From Armatimonadota bacterium (GTDB lineage: Bacteria > Armatimonadota > Hebobacteria > CAIYQO01): a stretch of DNA of 64,000 nt. Where the stretch lies: positions 1 through 64,000 of the forward strand of contig JAKPKV010000058.1 of NCBI GenBank assembly GCA_029553475.1, written 5' to 3'. Position 1 is the first letter of the stretch, and each line of letters starts with the position of its first letter. Positions 15,390-40,937 of this stretch are shown here, one piece after another. The position numbers and the translations under genes were made by a program. The notes below the pieces were generated by a model that did not search any database, was not told where the DNA came from, and saw nothing but the letters and a program-made list of their open reading frames with translations.

Positions 15390-15454
15390 GCGTTCACCTC
15401 TCCCCCCGGCCCCCTCCCCATGTAGGGGAGGGGGCCGGGGGGAGAGGTGAACGC
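15390..15454. repeat. perfect 30-bp hairpin in an intergenic gap
   Basis: Positions 15390-15419 are exactly complementary to 15425-15454, with a five-base loop ATGTA. The stem is almost pure C on one arm and G on the other. It lies between the D-2-hydroxyacid dehydrogenase stop (15460) and the aminotransferase start (15370). There is no T tract, so it looks more like a REP-type palindromic repeat or mRNA-stabilising hairpin than a classical terminator. Confidence 0.9.
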
Positions 15455-40340: not shown

Positions 40341-40370
40341 TTGACACCCCTGCGACCGCGACCGTATACT
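40341..40370 (+). promoter_or_regulatory. strong sigma70-type promoter of the acetyltransferase leader
   Basis: A perfect -35 TTGACA (40341-40346), an 18-base spacer and TATACT (40365-40370), among the closest to consensus in the window. Transcription would start near 40377, about 130 bases before the acetyltransferase. The 200 bases before it, back to the zinc-ribbon gene, show no other gene. Confidence 0.8.
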
Positions 40371-40376
40371 GGGCAC

Positions 40377-40433
40377 ATGATGGCTCGCATGACACCGTGT
40401 GCGTGGACCATCCGTCATCCCTGGACGCCATAA
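40377..40433 (+). CDS. candidate 18-residue leader peptide with two Trp codons
   Basis: The frame starts with two ATG codons at 40377 and 40380 and stops with TAA at 40431-40433. It encodes Met-Met-Ala-Arg-Met-Thr-Pro-Cys-Ala-Trp-Thr-Ile-Arg-His-Pro-Trp-Thr-Pro. Trp codons are at 40404-40406 and 40422-40424. The predicted transcript begins at or just before the first ATG, so translation would be leaderless. The candidate antiterminator strand starts at the very next base after the stop codon. The peptide is too short for homology; its reality rests on the arrangement. Confidence 0.5.
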   Translation: MMARMTPCAWTIRHPWTP

Positions 40434-40490
40434 CCGGCATTCGGGCTGTTCGCGCGTCTCTCTCCCCTCCCGGATGCCGGGAGGGGTTTT
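40434..40490 (+). terminator. candidate attenuator: terminator plus competing antiterminator hairpin
   Basis: The terminator is a perfect ten-base-pair stem CCCCTCCCGG (40464-40473) / CCGGGAGGGG (40477-40486) with loop ATG and a TTTT tail (40487-40490). It ends just before the acetyltransferase ribosome binding site. CCGGCAT at 40434-40440 is exactly complementary to ATGCCGG at 40474-40480. That pairing uses part of the terminator's right arm, so the two folds exclude each other. No plus-strand gene lies upstream, so the terminator can act only on this leader. Confidence 0.7.
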
Positions 40491-40505
40491 GCGTTGGAGG
40501 CGGCC

Positions 40506-40937
40506 ATGATGATTACCTATGCGCCGATGACCATCGAAGCGTATGATGCCGTGATCGGCTTGTGGCACGGCATGCCGGGGATCGGCTTGCACGTGGATGA
40601 GGCCGATTCGCGCCACGGCATCGCCGCCTACCTGCGGCGCAACCCCGGCATGAGCGTGGTGGCCCACGATGGCGCGCGCCTGGTCGGCGCGGTGCTCTGC
40701 GGGCATGACGGCCGCCGGGGGTATCTCAGCCATCTGGCGGTGTACCCGGCCTATCGCGGCCGCGGCATCGGCCGTGAGATGATGCGGCGCTGCCTTGCCG
40801 CGCTGCGGTCGGAGGGTATCGCCAAATGCACGATTCTGGTCTATACCGATAATACCGACGGTCAAGCGTTCTGGGAACGGCACGGTTGGCGGCAGCGGGA
40901 GGACCTGCGGTGCATGCAAACGGCGACGGGAGCGTGA
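40506..40937 (+). CDS. GNAT-family N-acetyltransferase
   Basis: A 143-residue acetyl-CoA-dependent acetyltransferase (RimI-like). The acetyl-CoA binding motif is 'LAVYPAYRGRGIGREMMRRC'. The C-terminal 'YTDNTDGQAFWERHGWRQRED' fits the family end, with an active-site-type tyrosine. GGAGG sits five bases before ATG 40506 (a second ATG is at 40509). The acceptor is unknown. Its only evident promoter is behind a leader with a Trp-containing peptide and a terminator, which suggests attenuation control. Confidence 0.9.
   Translation: MMITYAPMTIEAYDAVIGLWHGMPGIGLHVDEADSRHGIAAYLRRNPGMSVVAHDGARLVGAVLCGHDGRRGYLSHLAVYPAYRGRGIGREMMRRCLAALRSEGIAKCTILVYTDNTDGQAFWERHGWRQREDLRCMQTATGA

Follow-up and report, generated by a model that had tools for sequence, protein, structure and literature searches.

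Leader element upstream of a GNAT-family acetyltransferase gene

The window, a 64-kb stretch of DNA from an Armatimonadota genome, contains a gene at 40506..40937 (+) encoding a GNAT-family N-acetyltransferase of 143 amino acid residues, which is PA4534-like and distantly YpeA-like. The protein matched Pfam PF00583 (8.5e-17) and the structures PDB 4ubr and 5ib0 (about 1e-28). Its match to NCBIfam PRK03624 (83 bits) was under the cut-off of 124, and that to an N-acetylglutamate synthase family was weak (19 bits, cut-off 280). The orthologues in a second species of the same genus and in a third genome, from a sister genus, are 77% and 52% identical to it, respectively. In the second species, the gene 3′ of the GNAT gene has distant similarity to those of Nim nitroimidazole reductases (69 bits, cut-off 260).

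The element at 40341-40505, on the same strand, begins with a sigma-70-type promoter (40341..40370), in which TTGACA (40341-40346) and TATACT (40365-40370) are separated by 18 bp and 11 of 12 positions match. Transcription is predicted to start at or adjoining 40377, which is also the first base of a leader ORF, MMARMTPCAWTIRHPWTP (40377..40433). It consists of 18 codons, with TGG as codons 10 and 16, and a TAA stop codon (40431-40433). Because its ATG is only six bases 3′ of the −10 sequence, the ORF is probably translated leaderless, as the original prediction had proposed, and this close spacing is common to 5 of the 17 homologous leaders described below. Promoters scoring 10/12 or 11/12 were found in 16 of these leaders.

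Segment 1 (CCTGG, 40420..40424), inside which the last Trp codon lies (40422-40424), is the 5′ strand of a predicted protector (anti-antiterminator) hairpin; it pairs with TCGGG (40441-40445), and an inner stem is formed by GCC (40427-40429) and GGC (40436-40438). Segment 2 (CCGGCATTCGGG, 40434..40445) lies directly 3′ of the TAA and can pair either with segment 1 or, as an antiterminator, with segment 3 and the terminator loop (CCCGGATGCCGG, 40469-40480), the latter with 12 possible pairs including one G-U. Segments 3 and 4 constitute an intrinsic terminator at 40464..40490 (CCCCTCCCGG - ATG - CCGGGAGGGG - TTTT), whose hairpin (40464-40486) is a perfect 10-bp stem followed by TTTT. A ribosome-binding site, GGAGG (40496..40500), precedes the GNAT start codon. 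The whole leader folded at −47.9 kcal/mol (z −1.87) into a structure that includes both the protector hairpin and the terminator. All the parts that had been predicted here, namely the promoter, the 18-residue ORF with two Trp codons, CCGGCAT after the stop codon, the perfect terminator, the ribosome-binding site and a GNAT gene with no Trp biosynthesis gene downstream, are present. CCGGCAT can pair with the terminator as proposed, but it is only the beginning of a longer pairing segment, the 12-nt segment 2.

When both strands of the window were scanned for a short ORF, a complementary post-stop segment and a terminator, this was the single place found, and the same scan, in which the promoter was not yet required, gave no match in 40 first-order Markov sequences of 64 kb. 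None of the Rfam 15 families, including Trp_leader, exceeded its gathering threshold at the element, and the only match in the window was a tRNA. In a scan of GNAT relatives outside the family (46 loci, upstream terminator and ORF), the element was present in the same-genus contig only, and two other loci had unrelated hairpins.

A family of paralogous leaders and its cargo

A nucleotide search of the window's genome revealed four further copies of the element, upstream of ileS, the citramalate synthase gene cimA and two methyltransferase genes, and a covariance model of those five copies detected a sixth in the same genome, before thrS. Across 14 genomes of the class, the five-copy model gave convincing copies in the three genomes of the window's family only. 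A second covariance model, trained on 16 leaders, had 17 convincing matches in these three genomes, one of them the sister-genus GNAT leader (E 3.3e-8), which had not been used for training. Across 201 genomes of the phylum, the only further convincing copies were thrS leaders, MIQSLAGTTTT(ETT) and MIAVGFNTITTGTT, in two genomes that belong to a third family of this class. They were identified from their leader ORFs and genes and, like the thrS leader of the window's genome, adjoin a tRNA gene. Weak matches (E > about 0.0005) were inspected one by one. Apart from thrS leaders in two other families of the class, they were rejected as the same terminator copied on the other strand, as a dispersed GC-rich repeat or as chance. 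The window element is one copy of a paralogous leader family that the searches place in this Armatimonadota family only.

At four loci, the thrS leader is located directly 3′ of a tRNA gene, one of which is tRNA-Val by its GAC anticodon. This arrangement, which recurs in another family of the class, suggests co-transcription. The GC-rich repeat (CACCTCTCCCCCCGGCCCCCTCCCC...) is palindromic and occurs at 15395-15449 of the window and in many copies in the genome; it also lies between the leader terminator and thrS at two thrS loci, and it gives weak false matches with terminator models.

The order of parts was the same in all 17 leaders, and the genes behind them were thrS, ileS, cimA, GNAT, methyltransferase, nucleotidyltransferase and 2′-5′ RNA ligase-like genes. 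Thr codons are contained in the thrS leaders, MLYVRHEAESVTTTRRP (two genomes) and MACCPRVSAREAEHVTTTRRP, and they precede thrS in the two genomes of the other family as well as in the three family genomes. Ile codons are contained in the leaders of ileS (MTRAQRQPIIIGITWGP and MPCALSQTIIIGITWGP) and cimA (MRDAQRLAMIIDITWEP and MGSAQSLAIIDITWEP). The others are class D leaders (MYTCQRSNTHIVIGTWET, MYTCQQSEIHIVVVTWET, MHTSTMSEMHIAVCITWET and MNCCLMSEMHIVVISTEP), class E leaders (MRCHHSVAVNTPWFYAWAT, MLFINPVIEHTFRLYAWAP and MLFTNPVIANILLLCAWVP) and the GNAT leaders of the window, the same genus (MTTRLMRNAWIARHHWTP) and the sister genus (MTYRHCDKMATYTPRIIRDTGDIPV). No amino-acid-specific codon run was found in the GNAT leaders. 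The class D motif HI(V/A)V, which we take to resemble the macrolide arrest motifs of erm leaders, was not counted as evidence. On one contig of the sister genus, a class D and a class E leader are 13.6 kb apart, and upstream of the former a tyrosine-recombinase-like gene is encoded on the other strand.

The same-genus GNAT leader is identical to that of the window in ORF length, spacing to the −10 sequence and stop position, and it retains Arg13 and His14 as well as both Trp codons. Three of the 12 codon changes between the two are synonymous, near the neutral expectation of about 0.22, and their amino acids show no purifying selection. Conservation of the Trp codons was found within the genus but not beyond it: the sister-genus GNAT leader has kept the terminator, and Trp codons are absent from its best leader ORF, an outcome that the original prediction had named as refuting it. 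At codon −3, a Trp codon is present in 12 of the 17 leaders, whatever gene follows, including ileS and cimA. The trpE genes of the window's genome and the sister genus have Trp-rich leaders of their own with WCW, MIISSVRWSQDRQETGIWCWRPGTSPPS and MHSLRVQCGKAISSSTLWCWRWYTTSPPVRLDV, the peptide ends being WCWRPGTSPPS and WCWRWYTTSPPVRLDV. These candidate Trp attenuators are located about 330 bases upstream of trpE, have a strong terminator and are unrelated in sequence to the GNAT leader. As a further candidate, trpS was rejected: it has no leader and sits behind a gene resembling that of an ATP synthase subunit.

The cargo of the class D and class E leaders comprises methyltransferases, a nucleotidyltransferase plus GNAT, and a 2′-5′ RNA ligase-like protein. 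At a syntenic locus behind the same permease gene, two species share a class D leader but not its cargo: a single methyltransferase follows in the window's species, and a different, unrelated methyltransferase plus GNAT in the sister species. This amounts to a cassette-like exchange behind the same class D leader. A 75% identical copy of the permease-locus GNAT is found in the third genome, behind a nucleotidyltransferase gene after a class D leader. The solved structures and plasmid records searched did not reveal the functions of the cargo, no cargo enzyme scored above the curated cut-off of known resistance families, and a resistance function was not accepted on domain names alone.

Alternative helices and the codons computed to switch them

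Among 16 aligned leaders, 97.2% of the terminator cells were paired, with five compensatory cells, and 92.5% of the antiterminator cells were paired, with two pairs in which both bases differ (in two class E leaders U-A has become A-U, and in one leader A-U has become G-C). The mutually exclusive formation of terminator and antiterminator is backed by this comparison, in which compensatory changes occur in both helices. For the protector stem, 91% of the cells were paired. Of the covariation that the original prediction proposed to look for in relatives, that of the terminator and antiterminator was observed; the protector varied on one side only in the main alignment. In the thrS leaders, CGG replaces the Trp codon with the protector pairing preserved; one class D leader has ACG in its place and a CACGG:CCGTG stem, and the class E protector stems are CGCG and GGCC-type. 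The differing stems in class E and the one class D leader suggest covariation of the protector as well. In MFE folds, all three class E leaders have an apparent long-range protector helix that reaches codons −10 to −7 and in which differences between species compensate each other.

To locate the switching codons, the leaders were folded with the bases under the ribosome removed for every A-site codon, and upstream capture of the rising arm of the terminator was read out; this mask folding is a thermodynamic, not a kinetic, model. For the window leader, the antiterminator was computed to form with the A site at codons 13-17 (Arg, His, Pro, Trp16 and Thr), and capture was absent at codon 10 (Trp) and at the stop codon. 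Varying the footprint moved the switching zone by one to two codons, with codon 10 off at all footprints tested and the stop codon low. The Thr codons of the thrS leaders and the Ile codons of the ileS and cimA leaders fall inside their own computed zones, which calibrates the model. Of the two ribosome positions originally proposed, the one at the stop codon, where CCGGCAT would be covered, agrees with the model, in which the antiterminator is lost there. A stall at the first Trp codon, which had been expected to free CCGGCAT, would by contrast leave the protector hairpin intact and the antiterminator unformed. In two of the three class E leaders, a stop-bound ribosome with the standard footprint did not restore the terminator, so class E may work differently.

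Proposed cue, alternatives and known systems

Ribosome-mediated transcription attenuation is the likely mechanism of the leader family, because paralogous leaders carry cognate Thr (thrS) and Ile (ileS and cimA) codons. These codons and the compensatory changes in both helices lend good support to the classical-type attenuation that had been suggested from the window's sequence. For the GNAT leader, we favor, with a probability of roughly 0.55, a three-state attenuator in which a ribosome stalled in the late part of the leader turns GNAT on, the more probable trigger being general translation stress. If the leader were not translated, segment 1 would pair with segment 2, and the terminator would form and presumably act in vivo, leaving GNAT off; rapid translation to the stop codon would place a ribosome on segment 2 and have the same outcome. 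A ribosome stalled with its A site at about codons 13-17 would cover segment 1 and leave segment 2 free to capture the terminator's loop and rising arm, so that the GNAT gene would be transcribed. The last Trp codon would be present mainly because UGG belongs to the protector stem. Together with the late position of the codons computed to switch, this points to a ribosome slowed late in the leader as the signal, and the likelier natural cue would be general translation stress, e.g., a ribosome-targeting compound. Such stress might be what GNAT and the enzymes encoded after the sister leaders counteract. The exchange of cargo behind a constant leader is easier to understand with stress sensing than with amino-acid sensing. 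This cue is also favored by the variety of enzymes behind class D and E leaders, by the Nim-like gene after the GNAT of the second species and, in the GNAT leaders, by the lack of a codon run and the near-neutral codon changes. Because no cargo enzyme passes a resistance-family cut-off, a drug or stress cue is something we infer; nitroimidazoles do not target ribosomes, which is a point against reading the Nim-like neighbor in terms of stress.

The cue originally proposed was tryptophan, with low charged tRNA-Trp stalling the ribosome at the Trp codons and turning GNAT on. Two TGG codons among 18, both present in the same-genus orthologue, are consistent with this, candidate Trp leaders precede trpE in this family, and Trp starvation could also act because codon 16 is inside the computed zone, where a stall exposes the antiterminator. 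We nevertheless consider this unlikely, since a stall at codon 10 gives no switch in the model, the best leader ORF of the sister-genus orthologue lacks Trp, and no Trp gene lies downstream. The Trp codon at −3 cannot be a specific cue before ileS or cimA, and its presence in 12 of 17 leaders is best explained by its place in the stem, because the substitutions in thrS, class D and class E leaders keep the pairing. Retention of Trp10 is unremarkable, as the leaders of the two species agree at half of their residues. Other Trp leaders also look different: the candidates before trpE have WCW, and published ones have double or triple UGG (PMC1262725). The signal is probably something other than the tryptophan codons.

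Sensing of another amino acid, most plausibly Arg or His, would fit CGT CAT/CAC at codons 13-14, which is conserved in the same-genus orthologue and inside the switching zone, and Arg CGT codons are also inside the broad zone of the third GNAT orthologue. His is missing from the latter zone, however, and both residues occur as single codons rather than in runs such as those of thrS (TTT) and ileS (IIIGI); no Arg or His gene lies downstream, the match to N-acetylglutamate synthases being weak, and we regard this possibility as quite improbable. It is still less probable that the leader is a plain terminator, e.g., a decayed copy of an amino-acid attenuator, that no longer regulates GNAT. Origin by paralogy from thrS/ileS-type leaders is likely, and the leader amino acids bear no sign of purifying selection, as such decay would have it, but ORF length, stop position, promoter spacing, segment 2 and the terminator are kept between species whose GNATs are 77% identical, and a recognizable copy persists in the third genome. 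Late-leader stalling under translation stress remains our preferred reading of the GNAT leader.

Ribosome-mediated attenuators are usually described one gene at a time. Here, near-same stem sequences are placed before thrS, ileS, cimA and non-amino-acid enzymes, which suggests, from the sequence comparison, that the RNA switch is a reusable part with exchangeable codons and cargo. More tentatively, and in our view less likely than not, the scaffold may have been duplicated in one bacterial family and re-aimed from Thr and Ile to the sensing of blocked ribosomes, driving exchangeable modifying enzymes. If true, this would give a direct view of the evolution of amino-acid attenuators into sensors of stress or drugs, in which the sensor stays constant and the cargo behind it changes. 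The leader set is a clean test case for swapping sensor codons or cargo. No paper describing leader-peptide attenuation in this phylum turned up in a limited literature search.

The GNAT leader shares with the classical attenuators (trp, thr, his, ilv and phe) a short ORF whose stop codon adjoins segment 2, the protector, antiterminator and terminator hairpins, and an intrinsic terminator before the ribosome-binding site; their cognate codon runs are matched by the sister leaders. It differs from them in preceding a non-amino-acid gene, in having no run of one codon and no Rfam match, and in that its Trp codon 16 is common to Ile leaders; one stem sequence is here common to leaders of different amino acids. 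The toiL uORF of Escherichia coli senses several ribosome-targeting antibiotics (PMC12121999), and the toiL-topAI-yjhQ-yjhP system resembles the GNAT leader in that a regulatory uORF, in that case responsive to translation stress, precedes non-biosynthetic genes; toiL acts by translational repression and Rho-dependent termination, whereas an intrinsic terminator is present here. The drug-responsive vmlR attenuator of Bacillus subtilis consists of a terminator, an antiterminator and an anti-antiterminator (PMC9226507). By analogy, it may be likened to the GNAT leader in its uORF with three hairpins, in stalling that turns the gene on and in its tolerance of uORF peptide variants, although its leader has 3 codons against 18 here and its target is an ABCF protein instead of a GNAT.
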